64,000 nt of DNA, from assembly GCA_002102555.1 (NCBI GenBank), contig MCFL01000031.1, forward strand, positions 1 to 64,000. Reading direction: 5' to 3'. The DNA comes from Catenaria anguillulae PL171. Lineage: Eukaryota; Blastocladiomycota; Blastocladiomycetes; Blastocladiales; Catenariaceae. The first letter of the stretch is position 1. Each line of letters opens with the position of its first letter. Made by a program: the position numbers and the translations under genes. Positions 39,240 to 57,842 of the stretch are shown piece by piece. The notes beneath the pieces were generated by a model. It was given only the letters and a program-made list of their open reading frames with translations. It was not told the origin of the DNA and did not search any database.

Positions 39240-39414
39240 GTTCGTTGTTGGGTGCAATGACCGGGAGTGATCAGTGGTTTTTGTATGATTCAGAGGTATT
39301 GCATCGACTATTTTTATCCCTTGAATAACAATCAGGATTTGACATTGACATATATGAACATCAGAGCATGACGATTTCTCTGTACGATAGATACTCAATT
39401 TGCGATGGATCCGA

Positions 39415-39423
39415 CTGTGTGCC
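39415..39423. repeat. Target-site duplication, left
   Basis: CTGTGTGCC directly precedes the MULE left end and is repeated exactly at 47000-47008. Nine bases is the usual MULE duplication length. Confidence 0.93.
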
Positions 39424-42244
39424 GGTCGCATTCACCTTCTCCCCTCCGTACCCCCGGGTTTTGCTGGGATTTTGGGCGCTTTTGCGCCCAAAACCCAGCG
39501 AGCGGCGCCTCTCGCGCCGCCCCCCGGGGGCTGCACGTGTTCACGTGCAACCCGCTCTCCGCGCACGCGTCGATCAGCCCTTGACCAGACTCGCGCAGCG
39601 CCGAGCAACCAAAAAAAAAGGAATCAAAATGAAAGAAAGAAAGAGTGAAGAGTACAGTGAAGGAATCAACCCAAGACATTGCGCAATCGTCAGCCTTGGC
39701 CAAACCACGGCGTTTCGAACTACTCAGCATCTCGCGAAGCATGAGCAACTCGCTGACAACCAGCAACGCGGTGAGCTCGCGATCCTCTGCCAGAGACAAG
39801 TCTCGGCATTCTCGCCACCTATAGGGGACAGCGAGGTTGCTCGAAGCTTGCAAGGTCCCTGCGCGCAGTTCAGCCTTCCCCAAATCTGCGTACCCCTCGC
39901 ACGAGTCACCTTGTCGTCAGCATGACCACCATGCGAAAGCGAGTCAAATGAACCACGCATTCCGAATGAGGATCGTGCGAACAGAGTGACCACGTGCGAC
40001 GCGGCAAGCAGGCTGGACGATGCGAACAGGGGTGGGATCATGGCAGTGGGATCATGGCCGAGGAAAAGTGGAAGGGGGGAAAGAGGCGGGAACGCTGTGT
40101 ATGATGACGAGGGATGTTGAAGTGATGGGGCACGTTCATACTGCCAAGAAAGGACTGGAGCGACGAAGAATCGGGCAGCATGACGGCTAAAGGAAACCAT
40201 CTCAAAGGGTCGAGGGGGGTGGCTTCTTTTTATACCCCTGCCTTGAGTTGCTATGGGCGCTGGCACCGATACACACCCGACTGCCTCGCGCTTCGTTCCC
40301 AGTGTTCCTTTGTGATTGCCTTTCGATCTGTGGCAGGTCCGTCGATTTGAGCTCAAGCGCACGTGTCCCGGCACGAGCCAAGGCCAGACACGTGCCCACG
40401 TGACGGACAGAGGAGTCGATCCGATCTTCGATGTCGTTGACCAGGTCACCGATCGCAATTGAGAGGCATGATATATGAACGTGCTCCATCAAGTCGGATG
40501 TTCATGGTGAGACAATGGGTGAGACATAAACGATGGCGACCAGCCAGTGTCCTACCTATGGGGCGGCTCTCACATCATGGTCCAAACGTCGCCAGCCAAG
40601 GTAGGCACTGTTTAGGAAGGCTGTATTGAACCATTCTGTTAACTCAACGAGAATGTACATGCCTCGTGTTAAAGCAAGTTCCGATTTCCGTAGCAGCACA
40701 ATGATGCCTTACAGCCAGCACGGTATTTAATGCGCTCCAGCAAGGAGCTTTCAATGCGCAGCGAACGTCGAGAACAGCCACAAAGCTAAACTGCAGACCG
40801 AGGCAGATAGGAGCGTGCACAAGTTCTCTGTGCGGCTGCATAAAGATGCTGTCCTTTGCAATCATTGACGAGCTGGACCCTCCACTCTACCGACATGACA
40901 TGGTCAGGCACGACGTGTACATGAGGAACTAATCCCATGCCATGCCACAGCCCACCCACTGTTACGTTTTGACCTCATGGGAACCAGTTCTTGTCGACTG
41001 GATTCCAAAGATCCATTATTGTCAAGACAAAAGGTGCATTAAGCTGGATGACGGCAAGTAGGTAACAAGTGACCAGTTCATGTACTCTCGGAAGCAAGAG
41101 AGGGAATGAGCGAGGGAGCCGACGAGAACATGTCAAGGAGCGCTGTTGGCGGGCAATGTAATGCAGTCAGTGCAGAAAACAGAGCAGGGCGTGTGTCACA
41201 GCCTGCAATTCTTCTTGCGAACAGGATGGAGGTGAGCCCACTGTTCCAATTGTTAGGACATCCGACTCGCTCAACTGGATATCTGACCTGACAACCACCA
41301 CCGACTGCAGATATGGATATATGTGGCATCCGAACCAATTCGTACAACAACATCCGCTATTGGGTGTGATTATCTTGTTGTGAGGAGCTCGTCGGTGAAG
41401 GATGACTAGCGACACTTAAATACCCACTCACGCACAAGCCAGCCGAATGACACTCATTGCACTCACCAGCTCACACTCGAACGGAATCGATATTCTTTTG
41501 CCTTCCACCCGTCCGATCTGTGAACTTCAAGTTAAGTATCATATCTTGACCTGAGCGAATTACATCGGCATGGATGGTTTATGTAGAAGACTGTGCTCCA
41601 TGAAAAGCAAGGCATGTCGACTCCTCCATGCCATCAGTTCCACTCTGATGTCATGAATACAAATGATTCTTCGAATAAGCGTGTATGTAGTAAGTAGGAA
41701 GAATACACTGCATCTGTGGGCAGCTCGGCATACACCACGGCAATTCAAAAGTGAGGATAACAAAGCCGAGATCGATGCAAGATCAACCCAGCGGAACAGT
41801 GCAACGAGGGTGGCGGAAAACATGAAAGAAACAGTAGAAAATGGGCGCGGCAAACAGCATGCAGCAGCAGACGAGAAAGGCAACCCGACAACTCACTCAA
41901 CGCTGGACGTCAGGATGTCTACCAATGATTTGGCGTTAACACAGCGGCAAAGGAGGTGACAGTCAAGAGACAAGGAAAGACAAAAATACCGAGGAAAACG
42001 TGAGGCGGTTGCCGTGGTTGCCATTCGTCGTCACTGGAATGTTAGCACGTATCTTTCCTTGAACATACCGAGCAGTATCAATCATCTTGGAGCACTGCAA
42101 ATGAACAGACTCCAGCTCCTTGAATGACACACCGTTACCCTTGTGTCGCAGCAGTATGGATCGAAGATATGCAACAAGGCAATGTAGGTCTCGGGCAAGT
42201 AACGCAGCTCGCGCAACCTCTCTGATCGCAACAAAGTAGTCGTG
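39424..42244. other. Non-coding left part of the MULE
   Basis: 3' of the transposase stop codon. It contains the palindrome cluster near the left end, the inverted copy of the TATA-like motif (near 40226-40234) and a frame of unknown meaning. I see no domain-bearing protein in it. Confidence 0.6.
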
Positions 42245-45200
42245 TCAGCAAGCGGACGCGGGAATCAAGAAATTGCACGCGCACGTTTGCTGTGAGGGCA
42301 AGGCGTCCGGTCCCTCCACGCGCTCATCCTCCGACTGCTGCAATGAATCCATCGGCGGCGCATCGGCGGTCTGCTTTTGCAACTGAGGTTGTTGGAGGAC
42401 CCGCGTTCGGTGTGGGCGCACGGCGTCGCGCAGTAGATCGCCGTTGTGCAAGTACTCAATTGCAACGAATGGGGCGGTTAGTCGCGGGGCGATCCGCAGA
42501 TCGGCAATGTCCCAACTGGATGACGTGCGGTGGCGGGCTAGCAGCAGGACGAGGTGTTTGCACATGCGGAATCGACCCATGCAATACCCTGGGCACGCGC
42601 AATGCCACCGCTTGACGTCTGTTGCGTACTTCGTGATTGACGTGGAGTCAAACGGCTTGATTGCGTGTTTGCGGAACTCGCGATTGAATTCCTGACGCCA
42701 GCGCGGTGTGGACGAATCTGAGCCTGAGCGGCGCATGTCGACAAGCAAACCAGGGATAACCTCGGCGGCAATAAAGGCGACAAGGATACCAACCGACACG
42801 CGGCCACGGCGAGCAAGTCGATGCTTGAATTGCGACCAATGTGCTTCATTGGCATTGGTAGTGAGCACGTAAGGAATCTCGGAAATTTCAGCGCGGTTGA
42901 CGGCCCAGCTAAGTATATGGTGCAGCGTGAGGGTTGTTTTCGAAGGACCAGAACAAAGAGAAACATACCGGGTATACTCCTCGGGACAGTACCAGTTACT
43001 CCACAAATACACCCAAATCGGCGCATGATCCAATGATTTGCACAAGTCGTAGGCCTCCTCAACGTGGGTTCGGTACAGCGCCTCGGCGTCCAACACCACA
43101 GACATGTTGCCATCAAAGCGAGGGTTTGATGCATGCTCACGGCCGTGTTTCCGAACAAGGTCGGTGATCTTGGTCATGGCAACATTCTTGTCGCCACGGA
43201 AGTGGATCATTTGGGCCTCCTCTTGCTTGTCCACGGCCCGTTGTTGACGCGCTTGCTCATCCCTCAGCCGCTTTTCCTCTGCCTTGCGGTCGATTGCTTC
43301 TTGTCTGGCGCGCGCTTTGTCCTCCTTGGCCTTCCGCTTCTCCAACTCCTTGAGTCTCCTTTCCTCCTCCTTTGCCCGTCGCTTTTCCTCGATCTTGAGT
43401 CGCTTTTCCTCCTCCTTTGCCCGCCGCTTTTCCTCGGCCTTGAGTCTCTTTTCGTTGGCCTTGAGCTGCGTTTTCTCTCCCTTGGAGAGTTGGCCATGGT
43501 CTGCCGCTGAGCGTGTCGAGCCAAGCGTCATGCGTGCAAGCGCCGTTGGCTGTGAGGTAGTGGGGGCGAGATCGAGTGGCACCGTGGGCGCCGTCGCAGG
43601 CGTGAGATCGAGCCGCACCGTAGACGCTGGCGCGACGGCAGGGGTTGCCGGCTGAGCGGGCAAGGTTGACAGCGCAGGTGCGTCGTGTGCTGGTCCGTGA
43701 GGCGCGGGGATTTGCGGCGTAGTTGAGGACGACAGGTTGCTAGCTGAAACAGTAGGTCCGGGCGCGGGTTGGGACGACGCAGCTAGCTCAGGTGCCGCGG
43801 CGGCGGTATCCCAGCCTGCCAGTGCCCACAGTGTCGGAAAGGCGGAACCCATGGTCGCCTTGACCGACTCGTCGGTTTCCCTCAACGATTTCACTGAAAT
43901 CTTTTGCGCGTCGTTGCCAGAACCAGCGAGGATGCGGGTGCGAATCGCCTTGAGGACGTGGAATTGGCAAAGCTGGACAATCGAATCTGGGAAGGCGGAT
44001 TGGTACGCGCCAATTTGGCCGAGGTCTTTGTCCGTTAGACAAAAAAGCGGGTCGACCAGGGAAAACTTGGCAGGCGCCGGGTCCTCAGGTGGTGGCGTGG
44101 CAGGGAACGCCTCGGCAAACTCGCGAAGGAACTGGGCGATTGCATCCATGCGGTCGCCAGGGCGGACTTGACCGGCAGCGAGCAACATGTACGCCAAGGG
44201 ATACGCGCGCTGATGCGCCATTCCCATCAAGGCAAGCAGCTCGAACCCGTCAACATTTGTTTTGAATGTACCGTCCATGATGAGCAGCTCGGTGGTTGTT
44301 GTGGGGCACGTCTCCATCAGCTCCTCACCAACCTTCGTTGTAAAGCCAATGTACTGCCGTGCGTCGCCACCGTCTTGACAAACGAGCAGCCGCCCAAGGT
44401 ATTTGCGACAATTGTCGTCGGTCGACAACAGTGTCCGGATGTGCGCAACGCTGTTGAGCCCCCGAAACGCTTGTCCGCCACGCGCCTTGTCAAACAGTGT
44501 ACGAAGGCGTGCCGTTCCGACGGCCACCATTTCGTCCTCAAAAACCGCATGGGCAAGTACGAGTACATCCGGAAAAGTTCGGTGGCAGTTGTCAATGACC
44601 AGTTGTTGCAGCTCTGACGAAATGGCGGGACGCGTGCGGTGCTGATGGACGTGGGGATGCGAGTAACGGACGCAAATGATGCCGTCACGGAGGTCGTCAT
44701 CGGTCGCGTGTGGCGAATTACGGATCCAGTTGATGGTTGCTGGTTTTGTGACGTGGGAGATCTCGACGGCTCCAGGGCAAGATGGGTTGGCGCAACTACG
44801 CCTTGCGCGCGGCTCCGACTGTGTGGCCCACTGCTTGGTGCTGAAGGAGGAAAGACGGTGAACAAACCGGGTCAGTTGAGTGGCCGCAGAGTGTCTGGAA
44901 GAAGCTCAAGACGTTGACGTACTTCCACTGGTACGAATCACCATCCAAGGCGTTCAAAACGCACCCCATAACGATGTTGACCATGTCAAGGATACGGTCT
45001 GGCGACAAGTTCGGTGTTGGCGACGCAGCAGGGCCACTGGAATGGGGTGCATCAGCACCGTCCAACTCGTTCGTGATGGGATTGAGGTCTTGGTCATCGA
45101 GGCTCATACTGTTGAAAGCGTTGATGAATGTGTCGATGGCCCAGACGTCGGTGGTTGGCGCATCCTCGTCAATGACCTCGGCAACAGAGGCGCGGGAGGT

Positions 45201-46206
45201 GGCGTGTACAATTCCTTGCCTCGTGATCGGAGCAACAGGAAGGCTGCGGTGGAACAGTAGACTATGGTGAGACACATTATATGGCACATGATGAAGATAC
45301 GATGAACGTACAAGAGTAGAAAGTTTGGGACACCGCGACTGCTTGGCTCCAGAGCGACGTGGCGAGCGACCTCAAGCACAAGATCCGACAAAGTTGGGCA
45401 ATACTCCGCGAAAATGGGAACCGTTGACGACGCGTCCTCGTCCTCGACGTTGCTGGCGCCGTTGGGGTGAGCGTTGGTGGCGCCGTTGGAGTCGGCAGGC
45501 GGCGCTTCCGCGGCCGCCTTGGTCTTCCTGCGATTGGTGCTCTTGGCATTTTCTTGTTGGCGACAGGCAAAGCACTGGGCCGCAAGGAACGGTTCGTGGT
45601 ACTTGACGAAGTGTGACATCGGAAGCTCGACTTTCTTGTTCTTACACTTGGAGTTCGAGCAACGCTTGCCGCTGCCAGTAAGCGACGTTACCGGGGAGGA
45701 GTCACCCTAATCAGTCGTTCATTGCCAGAGGTGAAATGGTGTTTAATTTGTCGTGAGAACAATGGGGAATGTCGTACATAAGTCGATGGAATGATCGGCG
45801 GCAAAACAACCTGGTTGGTGGAGGACGGAGGCGTTGGGTCGAATTCGAAAGCTTCGGCGGGCAAGGTGCCTTGAGTGCTGGGCGATTGTGCAGCTGCAGC
45901 AGGTGGTGATTCCGTGGCAACATGGGACGGCGTGACCCCACCCGCCAGGGGCGCCGGACAGACGCCGTCGAAGCCTGGGACGCTTTCCGCTGGGATCGCG
46001 GCAGGCATGAAGGCTGGCGCGACGTGCGTCGGCGGGGCGCCGTCGGAGCCTGGGACATGTGGGTGCTGGACCAGTCCGGCATGTCGAGGACGCTTGGGGG
46101 CTCGCGGATCGAAGGCTTCCAGGGGTGGCCTTTTCTGAACGTTGACCGGCGGTGGGCCAAATAGGCCCTGAGGAGACTGGGGGTGTGGAACGGCAAGGAT
46201 GAGCAT
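42245..46206 (-). CDS. MULE transposase
   Basis: The main exon runs from about 44875 to 42245. The catalytic residues are visible: D in IMDGTFKTN, D in CLTDKDLGQ followed by the CQFHVLKA (CxxH) motif, and E in TTNANEAHWSQFK. A SWIM zinc finger (WHCACPGYCMGRFRMCKHLV) ends the conserved part. Upstream in the same frame a DNA-binding zinc knuckle appears (CANPSC, then HPHVHQH). Two 5' exons are likely: about 45270-45706 (CSNSKC, FLAAQCFACRQQ) and one within 45710-46206. Their joins are not resolved. Between the second D and the E lies an unusual run of about 95 mostly Glu/Lys/Arg/Ala residues. The start codon is uncertain. Confidence 0.85.
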
Positions 46207-46999
46207 GGCCGAGGATTGACGCCAGTGGAAGCGGCACGTACATTCAATACAGCGGTGGCGGCTGTGGCAGTCGAAGGCGACGGGGTGCTTGTGGTGGTGC
46301 CTGAGGAGGACAGGAGCAGCATCGATGCCGGCAGCATGTGCGGCACGGCGAACGGCATGGGGCCGCGACGGGACGGTGAATGAGGGGGAGACGGAACGGG
46401 ACGTACCGATCGCCCTTGAAGGGCACGATCCACGTGGTGGGCCGCGGCGGCGGCAGCGCGGGCACGTGGCGAGAGCATTTGCGACATGATGAGGGCTACC
46501 ATGTGCCTTGGCCGAATGTTTGGGGCGCGTGATCAGTCAGGCGCACAGACGTGTCTCGCAGACGTTCAGGAAGACGTACACAGTGCGGCGGGGTGGCGGG
46601 ACGGGGTTGGACGGGCGGAGAGCGCTAGAGGTACAAACGACGGTGAGTAAGCGAGCAAAGCACCGGGGCGGGCGACGGCGGATGGCGGGCGCGGCGGGCG
46701 CGGCGGGCGCGGCGGGTGGACGGCGGCGGACCAGGACATACCGTTCTTGCGGATGAGGTCGCGTGTTGCGGCCGGTTTCGTTTCTTACTACGCAATAGCG
46801 GGCGAGCGGGCGTTCGTAATGTTTGCCGCCGGCCGCTGGCGGCGGCGTTAAATGGTTGGTCAGTGATCTCGAGACGCCGGCCATGGGAGAAATCACGTGC
46901 CTATACCATTGTATTGGATTGTCATTGTGATCAGGAGCATTTTCTTGAAATTGTTCACTGATCGACTGGGGGTACGGAGGGGAGCCTTCAACAACGACC
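46207..46999. other. Right end of the MULE, probable transposase promoter
   Basis: GC-rich with several GGCGGGCGC repeats (46684-46718). It should hold the transposase promoter and perhaps its first exon. Ends with the terminal inverted repeat. Confidence 0.5.
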
Positions 47000-47962: not shown

Positions 47963-49247
47963 TCAAGCTGTTTCAGCCGTATGTGAGGAATTGCTGTTGC
48001 GTCTTGTACAGTCATGATGGGTCAATCTCATCCATCCAAACTCCAAGTTTTTCGCGGAATTTGTTGTTACCCCACTTTACCCCTCTCCTGTTGTCCTACC
48101 GTTTCTTCTCTTGCCTTCTCTACCCCATCCACGCAGCGGACGTCAAGCCGATTGCAAGTTCACTCTTCTACACTTTATTGAGCGCATTTCTCTTCAGCTT
48201 GTCTCCATTTTGCATTCTCTGAAATGTATGCTTCATACTTGACTCGTTCACTCTTGGTGATGACTTCCTGATCGTGCGTGCCGAATAGTCACATGCTTCA
48301 TACTAGTGCTCAATGACCTATGATATGTACAAGAGGCGAGCAACAATGGTGCGGCGTGGTTTGTGGTTGAAGATTTCCAACCGTCAGACATATCCAGCTC
48401 CTTATGCCATTGTTGCTTTTGGTCAGAGTATTCACCAGTTGGATCCAGCTGCAGCCGCGGAACAGTGATGGCCACTGCAGCCGGCCGAGCAGCGGAGCGG
48501 TAACATTCTCGTCTGGGACCAAGTGAGGCGGAGGAGGATGAACGAAGGGAAGGCGACGGATCGGTATGCGAGCCAGCAATCAGCTCGCAACTGACTCAAA
48601 CATGAGCTCCTATGACTGCTTCACGTGCCTGAAGCTTTTGTGCCATACTGATTCCCTCTTCCCAAAGACAGTTGGATTCAGCAGCCGCGGAGCCGGCTCG
48701 AGTAGCAGAGCGGCAACATTGACGGCTGGGACCAAGCGCACAAGCCCAGCATAAGGATGAAACCAAGTCTCAGCTTTCATTGATGGCTGGCGCGAATTGA
48801 CTCGATGACTCAAACGACGACAAGGAATACGCGGCCACATCACTCACCACCGCGTTGTGCAACCGCACACAGCACAATGCATACTGCAGCGAGGGTAAAG
48901 ACTCGATGCAATTTCTAATGTAAAGCCTTTCTTTATGTCACTGATTCTTTAAAGGTCTGAATGCCCGTGTACATTGCTTTCGACCACATCCACCGAAACT
49001 CAATCCCGTCTCATCGACTCTTCACCTTGTTCGCAACACGCCCACCACACACCACACGTCCCACGCGTTCTCTGACTTTGAGTTTGACATCCACCTCCAT
49101 CATTCTTGAACAATTCTGTACGTACACCATGCACCGACCCTACACATGACCTTGCTTTCCAACCTGGCACTACATATACGTATTGTATTGTATTGACATG
49201 TGTACCGCCTTGCAGACTCTATCACCACCACAAGCAGTCATACCATC
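47963..49247. other. Intergenic, about 1.3 kb
   Basis: Contains an imperfect direct repeat of about 45 bases (near 48478-48525 and 48688-48735), listed separately. No gene recognised; small open frames lack coding character. Confidence 0.45.
48478..48735. repeat. Imperfect direct repeat pair
   Basis: The two copies share the pattern GCCG...GAG...AGAGCGG.AACATT followed by CTGGGACCAAG. They lie about 210 bases apart and differ at several positions. Origin unknown. Confidence 0.5.
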
Positions 49248-52200
49248 ATGTCTCGCCGCCCTACCCTCGGTCCCAACAAATCTGCCCGCACCGCCGTGGC
49301 AATCATCCCGCCACCCGCCCTTTGGCCCGCCATCCAACCTCTGCGCCGCGCATTCGACCCTGCCCATCCGCGCTGGCCACCTCACATCAACCTGCTGTTC
49401 CCATTTGCCCCGCTCTCCTCCAACAACAATGACGCCTCTGCCCTAGCCGACCACGCACGTCTGCCCTCGGTCTTGGATCGTATCCGCACCGCTTTGCAAT
49501 CCTGTCAAACCACGAGCGACCTGCACTTGCAGCTCGCACAGGCATCCACCTTTTTCCAACGCAAAGTCGCCATTGTCCACGCAAAACCCGTCTCGGACTC
49601 GTCGCTCCTCCAAATTCACGCCGCACTCCTGCGCGCCTTTCCGCAGTGCACCGACACGGCCGATCACGCTGGCGGATTCCACCCGCACTTGACGCTGGCC
49701 AAGGTGCCCTGGAACTCCAATCAGCCGAGTCAGACGCAGGGCAACTTGGATACCGTGCTGGATGCGGCTGCACGGGCTGTCCAAGAGCATCATGGCGAAA
49801 ACGGCGTGCTCGAGTGGGTGGCACAGGGTGTCTATGTGCTCGAACGCCTGGACAACGATCCCTTCACGTTTGTGGGCCATGTTGGATTTGACGGATCGAC
49901 CAATGGTGATCCGTACGGATTGCTTGGAACAACATACTCGCCCGATGCGGATTTGATGGCGCCATTGCCGACCCCGGCAGCCGCCGAGGCGGTTCAGATT
50001 GCCGAGCCAAAGGACAAGTGCAGTGTTGTATGCAAACCCCGTACGACCACATCATTGGATGCAATCCAGCTGGCCGCAAGGCCGTGGCTCGAGTATCCGT
50101 GTGTGGATTCGCCCGAGGTGCTTGCGAGCGAAAAGTACGATCAGTCATGGGTTGTGCTGCCGACGTATCAGTACGACAGCCGCCATCAAGCGTGGGCCAA
50201 GGTTCCGCTCGAAAAATTCGATCAACATCATCATCACCACCACCAAAACAACATGGATTCATTGTCTATCATCACCTACAACATCCTCAACTCTCTGTCA
50301 CCCAACTCGACGGCACGGCACAAGCGCCTGCTCGCCCAACTGGAACGTGCCATCGCCACCCACTCGGTCACCGTGATTGCCCTGCAAGAATTGACGCCAA
50401 CCTTCCTGACCCTGCTGCTCGCCCAACCCTGGGTGCAATCCTCGTGGTCCGTGTCGCACACGCCCGACTTTGCCGCGCCCGTGTTTCCCGCCATGGGCGC
50501 CCAGGGATTTCTCGTGCACAAGTCGCTCGGGGCATTTGCACACATGCACATGCGTCTCACGGGCAAAAAAGCACACGTGGTTGCATACCTTCCCCAAACG
50601 GGCGCCTGGATCGCCAATGTGCACTTGACATCCAATCATGCGACGAATCGCGATCCAAAGGATAAGCGCGTGGCGCAAATGGATCCCGTGGGCCAGTTGC
50701 TTGAGAGGCATGCACGCGGCCGGGGATTGGCCGTGGTGGTTGGCGATTTCAATTCGGATGATCACGAAGAGGATGCCATGTTGATTGGCAGGTTTGGGCT
50801 CGTGGACGGAGCGGGCGAGCTGGGCCGCAGACTGGACACGTTTGATCCGACACGCAATGTGTTGGCGTTGGCGGCGGCAACCATGAAGGAAACGCCGCAT
50901 GCGTATGATCGGGTCGTGTACCAAGGCAAGTGGACAAGCGGGTGGGAGGTCAAGCACATGGACATGATTGGCGACCGGGTCGAGGACGAGGAGGATTTGG
51001 CAGGTGTGGAAGATGAGGACGAGCGGTTGACGCGCGGGTGGCCTGCCTCGGACCATTACGGAGTGCTTGCCCGGTTTGTTTGCAAGGCAACAACGACAAC
51101 TGACGACGAGGAACAGGGTTCGCTCATCTCGAACCACGAAATCCACTCGCGCCTCGCTGCCCTGCACAACTATGAGTCGCAAAGTCAACGTGTGCTGCGT
51201 GCCCGCGCCCTCGACCTGCTCACGCACCATCTCAACCACCTTGACCGCATGCCGCCGCTCGCCATCCCGCACCTCTTGCCCGTCGGGTCTGTGCGCTTGG
51301 GTCTGCACTCGCCCGAATCCGATACCGACCTGCTGTGCCTCGTGACCACGTCGCCCACGCTGTTTGCCGACGCCATTGAGCGCACCGCATGCCCAACGGG
51401 CTTGCGCCTGATGCGCGTGATTCGCGACGCGAGTGTCCCCACGGCACAATTCATGGCATTTGACAAGGTGCACATGGACGTGCAGTACGTTGCACCCAGC
51501 ACAGCATTCCTCACACGCGCAAGCGAGTTGCTGGCCAACCCGGACCTGGCCTCGTCCGAGCTCGAGTGGCCCGACGAAAAGAAGTCGGTGACGTCGGCAT
51601 TGCTTTCGGTGCGCGACGCCGCAACCGCCGCAGCACACCTGACGCCGGCTGCACAGCTCGCGTTCCGCGTGCTGCGCCTCTGGGCCACTGACAATGGCCT
51701 GTACGCTGGCCGCGTCGGATACCTGTCTGGCGCGGCACTTGTTGTGCTTGTGCTGCGCGTGCTTCACGTGCACCCGGGCGCTGCGCACTCTGCGGCGGCC
51801 ATTGTCAAGCACTTTTTCGACGATTACGCGCAGTTCCCGTTTGCGAGCGTGGCAGTTACTGTGGGTGGCGCACCTACGGCACCCGTACGTGGGGCCATGG
51901 TTGTTGAGAGTTTGAATCGGCCACGCGTCAACATTACCCGGCATGCAAGCGCGGCGACACGGGGTGTGCTGGTGACCAAGTTGAGGGAGATGCGCGAGAG
52001 GGCCGCCGAGGATCCAGCGGCGGCGATTTTGGGGCTGGATGTGAAGAAGGGCGACTGGAGGTGTCGCGTGATCAAGCATGGGTGGCAGAAGTTTATGAGC
52101 GAGTACGACACGTTCATCGACGTGGGCATGGGCCGGTCGGTAGCGGATCGGGAATGTGTTCGCGCATGGAGGCTGGCCGTGGGAACCGTCAGGTGGAATC

Positions 52201-53123
52201 AAGTGCTAGGACGAGTGGATCGCTTGATTGAGGCGCACGAGGTTGCAGCAGCCGAGGCCACGAGCCCAAGTCCGCCAAGCAGTGCGGACGACAAGGTTGA
52301 GTCGCAACCGCCGCCGCCACGCGCACAAGAGGTGCCGTCCATGACCGTTCACGTCTGGCCGGTCGCCTGGCAAACCAAGGACGTTGCCAGCATGTCCGAT
52401 GTGGCCATGAACAAGTTGCACGACGTTGATGTGCATTACTTGGTTGGCGTGCGCGGTGTCGAGCCGGGTAGTATGCTGATGCAGCGTATTCTCGCCGAGA
52501 TTGATGCAGCGGTTCGGCCGCCTGCTCTCGATGAAGTCAAGGGCGCCATTGGGTCGAGTGTGGCAGCGCCGTGGTGGTCGTACGTGACGTGTGCGACTCG
52601 TGCAGAGGTGGCGGCGTTGGAGTTGGTGCCGGTGGAGAGGGAATGGACGGATCCCGGACCGACCGAGGCTGTTGACGATTTGAAAAACGGTGGTCATGAT
52701 GAAGGTTCAATTGATTCGCCCGTATCCGCCGCCCCCACTTCGCCTCCCGAGGTCGATTCACCGCCCGCATCGCCAACGCGTTCAGCGACCTCAAGCACCG
52801 CCAAGCAACGCAAGTCCAAATCGAAATCAACCCGGCAATCTGCCTCGCAACCTGCATCCAAGGGCAAGCTCCGTCCCTCGCAAGACGTCATGCATCGGCT
52901 GCTGTGGGACCCCGAGACGTATGACGCGGCCGACTTTGTTGTCGGCTACGTTGACCGGTTCTTGGGGATCAAGGAGCGGCCTCTGCTGGCGTTCCGGTCG
53001 GACGATGAGGCGGATCCAGATTGGGTGCCGCTGCATCGAATCGTCCATTTCCGACGGGTGTCGGATGGCGTCAAGGTGTGGGATCGCGAGAAGAAGGTGG
53101 ATTTGGTATTTGGAAGCGGGTGA
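49248..53123 (+). CDS. Four-domain RNA-end repair-type enzyme: 2H, EEP, poly(A)-polymerase-like, MJ1316
   Basis: One exon of 1292 codons, starting at MSRRPTLGPNKS. Residues 15-250 form a 2H phosphoesterase (LigT-like) domain with HIN at 46-48 and HLT at 147-149. Residues about 337-605 form an endonuclease/exonuclease/phosphatase domain (ITYNILNS, ALQE, GDFNSDD, SDHYG). Residues about 650-1060 form a nucleotidyltransferase with PAP-type central domain: PVGSVRLGLHSPESDTDL holds the GS...DxD site, HMDVQYV the third Asp, and FRVLRLWATDNGLYAGRVGY the central helix. Residues about 1211-1291 form an MJ1316/DUF504 domain thought to recognise cyclic RNA ends. Together they suggest opening, trimming and re-tailing of damaged or 2',3'-cyclic RNA ends. 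A six-histidine run lies in the first linker. All active-site motifs look intact. Confidence 0.88.
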   Translation: MSRRPTLGPNKSARTAVAIIPPPALWPAIQPLRRAFDPAHPRWPPHINLLFPFAPLSSNNNDASALADHARLPSVLDRIRTALQSCQTTSDLHLQLAQASTFFQRKVAIVHAKPVSDSSLLQIHAALLRAFPQCTDTADHAGGFHPHLTLAKVPWNSNQPSQTQGNLDTVLDAAARAVQEHHGENGVLEWVAQGVYVLERLDNDPFTFVGHVGFDGSTNGDPYGLLGTTYSPDADLMAPLPTPAAAEAVQIAEPKDKCSVVCKPRTTTSLDAIQLAARPWLEYPCVDSPEVLASEKYDQSWVVLPTYQYDSRHQAWAKVPLEKFDQHHHHHHQNNMDSLSIITYNILNSLSPNSTARHKRLLAQLERAIATHSVTVIALQELTPTFLTLLLAQPWVQSSWSVSHTPDFAAPVFPAMGAQGFLVHKSLGAFAHMHMRLTGKKAHVVAYLPQTGAWIANVHLTSNHATNRDPKDKRVAQMDPVGQLLERHARGRGLAVVVGDFNSDDHEEDAMLIGRFGLVDGAGELGRRLDTFDPTRNVLALAAATMKETPHAYDRVVYQGKWTSGWEVKHMDMIGDRVEDEEDLAGVEDEDERLTRGWPASDHYGVLARFVCKATTTTDDEEQGSLISNHEIHSRLAALHNYESQSQRVLRARALDLLTHHLNHLDRMPPLAIPHLLPVGSVRLGLHSPESDTDLLCLVTTSPTLFADAIERTACPTGLRLMRVIRDASVPTAQFMAFDKVHMDVQYVAPSTAFLTRASELLANPDLASSELEWPDEKKSVTSALLSVRDAATAAAHLTPAAQLAFRVLRLWATDNGLYAGRVGYLSGAALVVLVLRVLHVHPGAAHSAAAIVKHFFDDYAQFPFASVAVTVGGAPTAPVRGAMVVESLNRPRVNITRHASAATRGVLVTKLREMRERAAEDPAAAILGLDVKKGDWRCRVIKHGWQKFMSEYDTFIDVGMGRSVADRECVRAWRLAVGTVRWNQVLGRVDRLIEAHEVAAAEATSPSPPSSADDKVESQPPPPRAQEVPSMTVHVWPVAWQTKDVASMSDVAMNKLHDVDVHYLVGVRGVEPGSMLMQRILAEIDAAVRPPALDEVKGAIGSSVAAPWWSYVTCATRAEVAALELVPVEREWTDPGPTEAVDDLKNGGHDEGSIDSPVSAAPTSPPEVDSPPASPTRSATSSTAKQRKSKSKSTRQSASQPASKGKLRPSQDVMHRLLWDPETYDAADFVVGYVDRFLGIKERPLLAFRSDDEADPDWVPLHRIVHFRRVSDGVKVWDREKKVDLVFGSG

Positions 53124-53389
53124 GTGAATAAAGAATGGTGTGTTCATGTCCCCTCTAAGCTTGGTGCTATGTACCACTACGCTTTCACTGCAGATGGACG
53201 TACTTCTTCGTTTTGTCAATGTTTTCAATGCAATGCCTTTCATTTCCCAACCTGTTTGACTTGCCACCACCAGTGAGAAACGGGCCAATCATGGACATGT
53301 TCCAGAAGGCCGCTTGTTCTGGAAGGGTTACCCAACACAACACAAAGGATCAGTAGACATTGAAGAGCCGCCAAAGCAATGCTAACACC

Positions 53390-55108
53390 ATGAATCGAAC
53401 CGCCGGCAATACCAAAAGCAACGGATCCCGCGGCCGCCGAGCTGATACCTCGCCCGGTCGAGGGCCGTCGTCGAGTGACTCGTCGGCTTCGTCGAGCGAA
53501 TCGGGTTCGAGTTCTGGTTACTCGTCTGGCTCGGACACGGAAATGCACCAAGGGTCGCCGCAAAAGACAAAGACCAAGCCCAAGTCCACCGGCCCGCTCC
53601 CCGGTGCGCCCGGATCCCTGCTGGACTCGTTCCTCACCCACCAAGAATCGGCCGCTGCGACGTCGTCACCGGCCACCAACGGCGCCGCGGTGCGTAACCG
53701 CTCCGCCAATGTGCCCGTGGCCACGCTTCCCGAAGGCGCCGCCGGCGCTGAAGCTGAAAATTACCAGTCCATCGAAGCAGTGCCCATGGACAAGAAGGCC
53801 GCAAAGAAGGCCGCCAAGCAAGCCAAAAAGCAAGCAAAGCACTCGGTCGCGAACCCCGTCGCCGTGTTGGGATCCGCTTCCCCTACCGTGTTTGCCTACC
53901 CGCTCAACGGCAAGTTACCCGTGCTTTCACTTCTGACGGCTCTCGGCGCCACGGCCGCTTCGCCCTGGACCGAACAAGAAGTCATGTCGGATGCGGTTGC
54001 CCTGTCCAATGCCCGCATTCGAACCGTCGATGACCTGCGCTACGTGCCCAAGAAGGGATGGAAGGACTTGCCTGTCCCGCAAGTTGTTTCGGATCGGTTG
54101 CGCCGGTGCGTGTGGGCGGGCATGGATAAGCGGCACGTGAGAGAAATGGAGGATGGGTTACTGGATGGCGTCGGTCAGGAATTGGCCAAGAGTCTGCCGA
54201 GCTTGCCCGCTACCCTCGCTGCGAGGAATACCACTCAGGATGGACAACCCAAACGCACCATCGAGCTCGAGCCAGCCACCGTGACCACCAACGATGGCAC
54301 TACTGTCGCTCCGCGCCATGCCACGGGAGGCGTCCACACCAAAGCGGACGACAAACCCGAAGGATACTGGTCAACGCTCGCGTCGCAATTCCTCGGCACC
54401 GCATCGCCCGCCGTCGACTCGACCCCGCGCTCGCCTCCGTCGCCGCCCACGCAATCGGCAACGGTCAACTTGGACCCGTCCAACCCGGCTGCGCTCGTCA
54501 ATGCGCTCCTGTACGATGGCAGGGGTGGCCCACAGTGGGTGCCACCGACTCTCGACGAGGTCATGGCTTCGAGTCCCAAGAAGAAGTCGACAAACGCGGC
54601 CAGCATCCGTGACGTCAAGCCCGCGGTTGCGGCGGCCTTGGCGGCAATGGATGCGCAGCCCGAAAACCCAACGGCTGCCTCCATCAAGTCGACCAATGGG
54701 GACACCAGCGTCAAGCTCAGCGCAACGGACCTTTCGTCGACCGAGCTGGTCCACTCGCTCTTGCACACGGGCGCCATGGTGGCGCCCACGGACGCCAATG
54801 TGCCGCTCGATGCCAACGAAAACGCAACCGGTTCCGGTGGCGGCAAAACCATGCCCGCGGCACAACAGCCGCAACTGGGCGTGGTTGCGGGCAAACCCAA
54901 CCGGATTCGCGTGACCAATGGGCGCCAAGTGTTTGAGGTCGACAGGTACTGTCCGCACAAGCAGTACGATATGCTCAAGGCGCCCGCCATGCGTGGCAAT
55001 GTGTTGACGTGTCCCAAGCATGATTGGGATTTCGATTTGGCAAAGGGTGGCACGTGTGTGGGTCGGCCAGGTAAGTCGTTGAACTGTGTTGTTGTTAGCG
55101 ATTGGTGA
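53390..55108 (+). CDS. Rieske iron-sulfur protein with long N-terminal extension
   Basis: An uninterrupted frame of 572 codons starts at MNRTAGNTK. Residues about 500-565 form a Rieske [2Fe-2S] domain with both ligand motifs: CPH (in DRYCPHKQYDML) and CPKH (in VLTCPKHDWDFDLAKGG). Residues about 180-240 (WTEQEVMSDAVALSNARIRT, then KKGWKDLPVPQVV) resemble a SAM-like helical fold. The rest is low-complexity Ser/Thr/Pro sequence with a Lys/Ala run near 145. No oxygenase catalytic domain or membrane anchor is present, so it is neither a Rieske oxygenase nor the bc1 subunit. A GTAAGT near 55071 could be a splice donor, but the unspliced end gives a normal Rieske C-terminus. It lies 266 bases after the RNA-repair-type gene, same strand. 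Confidence 0.75.
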   Translation: MNRTAGNTKSNGSRGRRADTSPGRGPSSSDSSASSSESGSSSGYSSGSDTEMHQGSPQKTKTKPKSTGPLPGAPGSLLDSFLTHQESAAATSSPATNGAAVRNRSANVPVATLPEGAAGAEAENYQSIEAVPMDKKAAKKAAKQAKKQAKHSVANPVAVLGSASPTVFAYPLNGKLPVLSLLTALGATAASPWTEQEVMSDAVALSNARIRTVDDLRYVPKKGWKDLPVPQVVSDRLRRCVWAGMDKRHVREMEDGLLDGVGQELAKSLPSLPATLAARNTTQDGQPKRTIELEPATVTTNDGTTVAPRHATGGVHTKADDKPEGYWSTLASQFLGTASPAVDSTPRSPPSPPTQSATVNLDPSNPAALVNALLYDGRGGPQWVPPTLDEVMASSPKKKSTNAASIRDVKPAVAAALAAMDAQPENPTAASIKSTNGDTSVKLSATDLSSTELVHSLLHTGAMVAPTDANVPLDANENATGSGGGKTMPAAQQPQLGVVAGKPNRIRVTNGRQVFEVDRYCPHKQYDMLKAPAMRGNVLTCPKHDWDFDLAKGGTCVGRPGKSLNCVVVSDW

Positions 55109-55452: not shown

Positions 55453-57842
55453 TCACGGCATCTCCTCAATGGGCTCCAACCCCAAATCGCCCGCCTTTCC
55501 CCTGCCCACCTGCACCAAACTTGTCACCCCACCCACAACAAACAAGACTCCGCCCAACACCAGACAAGCATACGCACACCACCGCAACCACGCCTGCCTG
55601 GGCACCTTTCCCTCACGCGCCAGTTGCAAGTAGCAGTACGCAGGGAACACATAGACAACAAGCGATCCCGCGACCGATCCCGTGAGCCCAAGAATCCGGT
55701 CAAGTGATGGGACAAGCACCGAAATGAGCCACGACAAGAGCATGATGGCTGCGGCCTTTGTCGCAATCCACGACTCGATGGGTGCAGGCAAAACCAGCAA
55801 GTGCGTCGAGTCGGCATCGTCCACCACGTGCGTGTGCGGCGCAAATGGCGGGGATGCGTCGGCAAGCACGTGCATGGCCGATGCACGTGGCGTCAGCAGT
55901 GGCGAGTCGGTGCCGCCATACTGGTGCGCGTCGGGCGTGGGCGTGAGCAGCGGCGAGACGGACGATTGATGCACGTATGGCGAGCGAGGGGACACGGGAG
56001 CGGCAAACACGGACGAGGCTTGGGATCCGCGGCGCTTGATGTGCACGCGATGGTGGACGAGTGCATCGGTCGCATCGTTGGGGTCCAGGTGTGCGGGTGT
56101 GGGCGCCAGAGTCGGACTGACGACCAGCACACGCGCCGAGCCGCCCGTGAGTGTGCGTGGCCGGCCCGCCGCCACGATCGTTGCATGTGCCTGGTCGACG
56201 GCGGCAGTTGCGGAAGGCAACGTCGCAAGCAAATCCCCGGCACGCGCCGCCTCGTCGTGCTTGCCCCCGCTCGTCCCGCTGCGATTGCCCAAAGAGTTTG
56301 TGCGCTCTGCGCGCCACGCCCGAATCTCGTCGGCCATTTGCGCCAAGCACAATCGGCATGGCAAAACGAGCAGTGGAAACGTCAGAATAATGCACACCAG
56401 GATGGCGGCGCGTGCGCCCACAAAGACGGCCGATGCGGGCTCCGATGTCAGAATGTTGGGCGCCACGCGCGCGCCATAGTGAAAGTAGCCAGGGATGGCC
56501 ACGGATACATAGGTCAAGGTGACAAACAGGCCCGTGAGAATGATAAGCAAAGCGTTTTTGCGTGTGGCAGCGGCAGCCGCCACCGTGGATGGAATCACGC
56601 GTGTTGAGGGCGATGTGCGCGACACTTGCGCCGGGTTCATTTCGCGGGCGATTTCGATCACGTTCGAGTGGTTGATGAATGCCATGGCGATGGTGGAGAA
56701 CACGGGCGCCCATTGCCATCCGGGGACAATGGCCTTTGTGGGTGGCGGTGTCCACGAGGGCGTGTGCAGGTCGTTAAGGTAAGACACGGGCACGAGCACG
56801 GCGACAAACAGGATGGCGGCCAGGCCCAGTGACGAGACCCAGGCGAGCGAGGCCATGGAGCGCGCCTTTGAGAGTGGGTACAGGCACAGCATGGTGACGG
56901 CAACGAGGGCAAATTGGTGGATCGAGGCACGGGTTGCTGGTGGCGTGGTGGGCGCCACGAGCGGGAGAAGCGAGTCGATGATGGAAGAGAGGTACTCTTG
57001 GATGACAGAAAAATAGGCCGAGAGCGATCTATGTGGTCCGATTCCGTGGGAATGTCAGCTTACTGTCTCGAGTCGCGAGACACATCCTTGGATTGGATTT
57101 GTGGGTTGCGGACACGGCAGCCGATTGGTGCGGTGAGCGTGACTCATCGTCACGAGCGCAAACCTTTGCAGATGCAAGGTTCACCGGCCGGCACACGTGC
57201 CAGCCGCCCGATGGACGGCTGACGAGAGCCATGCGCGTGTCATGCTTGGAACGCAACCCTGCCCAACTTTGAAATTGTATCGTACCCGATGACGAGCACG
57301 AAAAACACCCAAGTGACAATCCAACTCTTTTTCTTGAGCACCGTGGCAGCCAAGTGAGTGTACCCTGTTGCGCCCGTGGCGTCGGCGGCCACCACCAGCA
57401 TGTAGAGCGAGAGCGACGACGAGATGCACGCAATGGCCGTCAGAAAGAGTCCGCCGACCCATCCGACATTGGCAAATGCCCGTGGGAGAGACAATGTGCC
57501 GACGCCAATGGCAACATTGGACAGGTTGAGGAAGCAGGAGAGTAGCGATGCTGGATGGGAGGTGTCGTCTTCGACAGGCAACCTGTGTCCTCGAGTTGGG
57601 GACGGTGACGAGGAGGACGAGGACGATGACGATGACGCTGCCGACCGAGAGCGTGTGCGTGAGCGAGTGCGTGGACTTTGGATCCAGTTGTTGGAGTGGG
57701 AACGGCGGCCACGACCTTGGCTGTGTGGATGAAGGGGCGATGGCGGCAGCAGTGGCGAAGTCTCTGAGGATGGGGATGGGGACTGCAAGTCTGCTTCAGA
57801 AGGCGCTGGTGGGTGGTGGTGATTTGCACTTGCAGTTGTCAT
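55453..57842 (-). CDS. Amino-acid permease of the AAAP/SLC38 (vacuolar AVT) family
   Basis: Two exons (57286-57842, 55453-57028) join to exactly 711 codons. After a Ser-rich N-terminus, helix 1 carries the family signature (LSNVAIGVGTLSLPRAFANV). About eleven membrane helices follow, with QYxx-like FINHSNVIEIAREMNP in the middle. A hydrophilic loop of about 180 residues is inserted before the last helices. The closest layout is fungal Avt6/Avt7, which export acidic or neutral amino acids from the vacuole. The substrate cannot be read from the sequence. The C-terminus is short and acidic. Confidence 0.85.

Follow-up and report, generated by a model that had tools for sequence, protein, structure and literature searches.

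Trl1 tRNA ligase uses a 2H-type domain to work on ends that carry a 2',3'-cyclic phosphate. It also has a ligase and a kinase but is not known to contain an EEP, poly(A) polymerase (PAP), or MJ1316 domain. Likewise, TDP2 is not known to have a 2H, PAP, or MJ1316 domain. Healing and sealing of cleaved RNA, of the kind that we propose here, is described for Pnkp1-Rnl-Hen1 (PMC4411300) and for T4 Pnk/Rnl1 (PMC2610378), and those descriptions name other healing enzymes and no nucleotide-adding step. The RNA repair systems that we compared heal and seal ends without restoring lost nucleotides. RloC is a nuclease that cuts the wobble nucleotide out of tRNA, a lesion that, in the view of those who discovered the enzyme, could defeat phage repair enzymes (PMC2610378). 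Here, we describe a gene on the plus strand (49248 to 53123) of a 64,000-nucleotide stretch of the genome of the blastocladiomycete Catenaria anguillulae PL171 (contig MCFL01000031.1, positions 1 to 64,000; hereafter, the window). Unlike Trl1 and TDP2, its product carries 2H, EEP, PAP, and MJ1316 domains in one chain. We favor, with moderate confidence and on the grounds of sequence comparison, the reading that this protein is a single-chain enzyme that would heal and rebuild RNA 3' ends, and that it represents, in Blastocladiomycota, a family of four-domain proteins.

Four domains in one reading frame

Translation of the window gave 1291 codons without a stop. The product (P0001, 1291 residues plus the stop) is 100% identical along its full length to an annotated protein from the same strain (P0002, from residue 64 onward). 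A preliminary description of this DNA had proposed an unbroken frame of this length that joins four domains of named families. Both points were borne out: in a profile search, each kind of domain scored above its curated Pfam cut-off, in the order 2H-EEP-PAP-MJ1316. The four-domain single frame is confirmed as an observation, and chance is excluded.

The 2H phosphoesterase domain occupies residues 12 to 212 (49281 to 49883; like all features of the gene, on the plus strand), with a match to 2_5_RNA_ligase2 (PF13563) at residues 21 to 172 (8.9e-24, 84.7 bits against a cut-off of 27). When we looked for two HxT/S motifs, the second was present as HLT (residues 147 to 149) and the first read HIN (residues 47 to 49), so that the earlier statement that all needed motif residues are visible fails at this motif. 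The domain is 2H-like by profile, and its activity is putative. The EEP domain follows at residues 338 to 616 (50259 to 51095) and matches Exo_endo_phos (PF03372) at residues 342 to 565 (1.3e-7, 32.1 bits against a cut-off of 24.5). Its motif positions are N345, E381, H459, D500/N502, D554, and D602/H603, and the N, E, D/N, and H catalytic-motif residues were invariant across the nine rows of our alignment.

The nucleotidyltransferase part of the PAP (residues 622 to 800; 51111 to 51647) gave a weak match to the PAP_NTPase model (0.015, below the cut-off). It nonetheless contains GS at 680-681, DTD at 692-694, and a third aspartate at 744, and it is followed by a PAP central domain (51648 to 52097, limits approximate; PF04928, 1.9e-8 at residues 804 to 866). 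Of the features of a canonical PAP, the GS..DxD nucleotidyltransferase motif, the third aspartate, and PAP_central are thereby in place, and a PAP profile matched canonical PAP at 1.2e-35. Residues 951 to 1140 (52098 to 52667) share a WP...YxxG pattern with bacterial rows of the alignment and are perhaps a PAP-type RNA-binding domain, to judge from that pattern and a low-confidence model. The structural model of the PAP was too poor for use (mean predicted local distance difference test score, 55.4; best match in the PDB, PAP gamma, at a template-modeling score of 0.28). At the C-terminal end lies an MJ1316 domain (residues 1209 to 1280; 52872 to 53087; PF04457, 2.5e-16, 60.5 bits against a cut-off of 26.3). 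Across the whole Catenaria genome (41 Mb in 457 contigs), MJ1316 was found only in the window gene and in a second copy on contig C221. The domain is described as recognizing 2',3'-cyclic ends of RNA, and its fusion to RNA-repair domains is reported from across the eukaryotes (PMC6514570); we predict that it binds such ends here. No ligase or kinase domain was matched by Pfam in the chain, which therefore differs from Trl1 and does not amount to the complete repair cycle once suggested for it.

The EEP domain is nearest to TDP2

In a profile search of solved structures, the EEP domain matched TDP2 best (4.9e-16), and the next families followed at 1.3e-7 or weaker. A Foldseek search with the EEP model placed TDP2 at ranks 1 to 39, with a small structural lead over other EEPs. 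The two share the fold and the motifs at about 16 to 20% identity. By profile and modeled fold, then, the domain is nearest among solved EEP families to TDP2, a 5'-phosphodiesterase, an affinity that does not fix its substrate; these relatives speak against the trimming nuclease that had been assumed for this part of the chain. The same two results lend weight to a variant of our reading, in which the EEP domain frees the 5' ends of RNA from attached protein or adenylate, so that one enzyme would deal with the two ends of a break. In addition, TDP2 takes VPg off picornavirus RNA (PMC7077319). We regard this variant as possible, although somewhat doubtful.

Profiles were needed in place of single-sequence searches to reach the solved relatives of the EEP and PAP domains. 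Plain phmmer searches against the PDB returned only noise for the EEP piece, much of it at the first residues beside a histidine run; for the 2H piece, the only matches were to KEAP1, and these were weak (0.14 at best). The bacterial MJ1316 piece, described below, had no match among solved structures.

Fungal and bacterial relatives

A protein of Blastocladiella emersonii (P0003), 40% identical to the window protein along 99% of the query, carries these four domains in the order seen in Catenaria. The eukaryotic search covered the protein database, required exact shared words, and scored the 8000 most word-sharing candidates; among these, Blastocladiella was the only eukaryotic match beyond Catenaria, which does not imply absence from other fungi. 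With the MJ1316 part of P0003 as the query, only P0003 and P0002 were recovered among 150 word-sharing candidates.

The architecture had been treated as a matter of early-diverging fungi, but it extends to bacteria. With an actinobacterial relative (P0004) as the query, 8000 candidates were scored, and 1264 of them reached E <= 1e-3. We considered the best 120 of the 1264, which are actinobacterial where named, align along their length, and conserve the motifs of all four domains: the nucleotidyltransferase GS..DxD in 120, the EEP GDxND in 119, and the second 2H motif, HL[TS], in 118. Precomputed Pfam annotation assigned all four families to 116 of them; P0020, P0025, and P0120 lacked PAP_central, and P0058, marked as partial, lacked MJ1316. 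P0004 and its relatives, annotated as "RNA repair domain-containing protein" or "poly(A) polymerase," have the domains of the window protein in one chain but, where scanned, in the order MJ1316-EEP-2H-PAP. A plasmid-borne protein of the cyanobacterium Calothrix brevissima (BAY66805.1; P0125), encoded on a conjugative plasmid, likewise has all four domains above the Pfam cut-offs in the bacterial order, with a PAP_central match of 1.7e-29 against 1.9e-8 in Catenaria. The same toolkit therefore occurs in two orders, a bacterial one and that of Blastocladiomycota, the latter being a eukaryotic example. With different orders in different lineages, the arrangement carries no information on the succession of reaction steps, and the idea that domain order mirrors reaction order has to be given up.

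Compared domain by domain with P0004 using BLAST, the window protein matched in the 2H (36.7%, 4e-16), EEP (31%, 1e-5), and MJ1316 (36%, 8e-8) domains, and the EEP domain of a Catenaria paralog matched at 3e-18. These matches support a shared origin of the 2H, EEP, and MJ1316 domains in the fungal and bacterial proteins. The PAP parts gave no BLAST match and are linked only through a common PAP profile. In a PAP tree, the node that joins cyanobacterial PAP with eukaryotic Pap1 had a support of 23.5/65, and the fungal rows sat on a very long branch. The tree decides neither the direction of transfer nor between one and two origins of the fusion.

Relatives of P0004 were absent from IMG/VR, in a scan for close relatives, and none were found in phages. 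Eight plasmid records matched P0004, three of them over at least 80% of its length, several of these "plasmids" being millions of bases long.

A ligase-kinase gene accompanies most actinobacterial relatives

Of 232 P0004 relatives in genome contigs, we kept 80 loci for an analysis of neighborhoods. Directly upstream and on the same strand, an RNA ligase-kinase gene was present in 75 of the 80 actinobacterial loci, the ends of the two matches lying 3 to 134 bases apart. One representative of the partner was scanned, and it combined RNA_ligase (1.1e-33) with an AAA_33 P-loop kinase (5.3e-20). Rough gene calls grouped the ligase-kinase in 41 loci, and the direct search provides the better count. 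As far as sequence can indicate, this pairing is the strongest evidence for RNA repair, and it gives independent support to the repair role proposed in the preliminary description.

The pairing also bears on two other explanations. The four-domain protein could be an RNA decay enzyme that tags damaged RNAs by tailing, or strips them, without repair. Oligo(A) tailing by noncanonical PAPs feeds exonucleases (PMC10493513). To give such exonucleases access, ends could be cleared by the TDP2-like and 2H domains. A ligase and a kinase beside the actinobacterial cousins point instead to resealing, and we consider decay rather unlikely. Alternatively, the protein could serve in antiviral defense or signaling, its nucleotidyltransferase making a 2'-5' or cyclic oligonucleotide that the 2H and EEP domains destroy. 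We think this improbable: the ligase-kinase suits RNA repair better than nucleotide signaling, PAP_central is much stronger in the Calothrix protein, and the window protein had no PADLOC match at 0.01.

The surroundings of the bacterial genes vary. In a number of actinobacterial loci (L032, L033, and others; at most 13 for any one gene cluster), ribosomal-protein and elongation-factor genes lie near the pair, most of them on the other strand. On the cyanobacterial plasmid (L100:7596-17820), two genes lie close to the four-domain gene, one of the dynamin family and one that matched RNase_T and AAA, in a setting that is perhaps defense-like.

In the window itself, none of the four neighboring frames that we scanned is a ligase-kinase (they matched MULE, Rieske, and Aa_trans, and one had no match), and the genome search found no RNA_ligase on the window contig. 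On contig C335, a frame (L098:1443-3320) combines an N-terminal stretch that resembles a DSP phosphatase, below the cut-off, with a kinase-like AAA_33 P-loop above the cut-off and an RNA ligase (1.3e-18). Its kinase and ligase are the domain kinds of the bacterial partner in reverse order. That this gene is the partner of the window protein is a guess.

Other Catenaria genes appear to cover tRNA splicing

An enzyme of this composition might be expected in tRNA splicing or U6-type processing, as a fused stand-in for the healing part of Trl1 or for Usb1. Domains of the 2H type serve in both processes, which is a point for this explanation. Yet Catenaria has Trl1-type matches of its own: two contigs match the ligase domain (a stop interrupts one of these matches), and there is a match to the Trl1-type kinase domain. 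There was also a Tpt1 match with one stop inside (possibly an intron), and a frame beside the ligase on contig C168, with two HVT motifs, resembles the CPD part by eye. A Pfam search for the CPD part matched nothing anywhere and is hence uninformative. RtcB gave no match in the genome. Because of the Trl1-type ligase, its kinase, and Tpt1, in a genome with no RtcB match, tRNA splicing appears to be covered by other genes. Furthermore, the bacterial cousins occur in organisms that are not known to have such splicing. From searches that covered Trl1-type, Tpt1, and RtcB genes, we judge a role in tRNA splicing or U6 processing to be very unlikely.

A second copy and a paralog

The frame bears marks of constraint. 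Over 12 kb, contig C221 and the window are collinear at 97.6% identity, and C221 is probably the other allele. The two proteins are 98.8% identical without an insertion or deletion, and the genes differ by 34 synonymous base changes and 16 changed codons, as expected for a translated frame under constraint. A rough rate ratio for the two copies, worked out by hand, was about 0.2.

A paralog of 1092 amino acids lies on contig C334 (L091:887-4165), with a near-identical copy on C141. It keeps the 2H and EEP domains, has HLN at its second 2H motif, has lost the nucleotidyltransferase motif, and gave no match to MJ1316. Because this paralog retains the 2H-EEP part without the nucleotide-adding part, there is a hint in the sequences that the two halves may have separable jobs.

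A scheme for repair with nucleotide replacement

Our computations show the domains and the families closest to them, the conserved motifs, the constraint on the frame, and the pairing in bacteria. The activities, the succession of steps, the RNA that is acted on, and the partner in the fungus are what we infer in the following scheme. The MJ1316 domain would bind RNA ends generated by cleavage, with their 2',3'-cyclic phosphate, and the 2H domain would open the cyclic phosphate. The TDP2-like EEP domain might then take off the remaining phosphate or another blocking group. Onto the freed 3'-OH, the canonical PAP-type domain could add nucleotides where some had been lost. A separate kinase-ligase, in Catenaria perhaps the C335 gene, would phosphorylate the 5'-OH and seal the break.

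The PAP domain is the puzzle of the case, because healing and sealing needs no polymerase. Replacing lost nucleotides is the simplest reason for keeping one. We tentatively suggest gap-filling RNA repair, in which the 3' end is cleaned, untemplated nucleotides are added after loss to a nuclease, and the end is passed to the ligase-kinase; we would not call this part of the reading likely. If true, the known scheme of healing and sealing would gain a third step, replacement, which could counter lesions such as the excision of the wobble nucleotide by RloC. A nucleotide-adding domain with intact motifs, beside a ligase-kinase in those 75 loci, is a direct and testable candidate for nucleotide replacement.

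Several observations weigh against a healing and rebuilding enzyme. TDP2 is known for acting on 5'-tyrosyl bonds, not on 3'-phosphates. The first 2H motif is HxN, and activity could be altered; HVN likewise stands at this position in 118 of the 120 listed P0004 relatives (HVT in one, not found in one). This objection is tempered by HVT in 3 of 13 diverse actinobacterial rows. The paralog, with 2H and EEP but neither MJ1316 nor the nucleotidyltransferase motif, indicates that joint action of all four domains is not a requirement. Neither BLAST nor the tree demonstrates that the PAP parts of the fungal and bacterial proteins share an ancestor.

The partner raises objections of its own. Five of the 80 loci (L031, L056, L069, L073, and L075) had no ligase match and have other frames upstream, and none of the three large neighbors scanned beside the cyanobacterial gene is a ligase. 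The Catenaria kinase-ligase gene is on a different contig from the window gene. Pairwise, it aligned with the bacterial one at 30 bits around the P-loop, which does not establish close kinship, and a search of the genome with the bacterial ligase-kinase, run without a positive control, found nothing in Catenaria.

We make no claim to a first description of this architecture. Burroughs and Aravind (2016, Nucleic Acids Research, on RNA damage in biological conflicts) are said to be a source for MJ1316 fusions and may already list it. Among the titles and abstract openings listed in a literature search, none described the four-domain protein or the actinobacterial pair.

Gene model and flanking features

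The deposited model (P0002) equals P0001 plus 63 N-terminal residues, which are gained through an upstream exon (48961 to 49117) and a GT-AG intron (ending at about 49214), together with the bases after the intron. The coding status of this exon is uncertain. The C221 copy lacks about 36 bases of it, and the extra residues have no counterpart in the Blastocladiella protein. For these two reasons, a start at 49248 is likelier than one in the upstream exon, but not proven. We considered whether the gap in C221 is a frameshift that disproves the exon, and rejected this, as the gap is in frame.

Between the domains, a low-complexity linker, read from the sequence, runs from 52668 to 52862. A strip before the EEP domain (50103 to 50258) is partly conserved in Blastocladiella and in the paralog. 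It contains a natural run of six histidines (50226 to 50243), one of which is a leucine in the C221 copy. Downstream of the gene are a Rieske-domain frame (53360 to 55108) and an amino acid transporter frame (55453 to 56958). On the other side, about 7.6 kb of the window (39380 to 46999) is missing from the near-identical contig C221. This segment has a short inverted repeat near its ends. It also holds, on the minus strand, a frame with a MULE transposase domain (42245 to 44530), which suggests a Mutator-like element that only one of the two copies carries.

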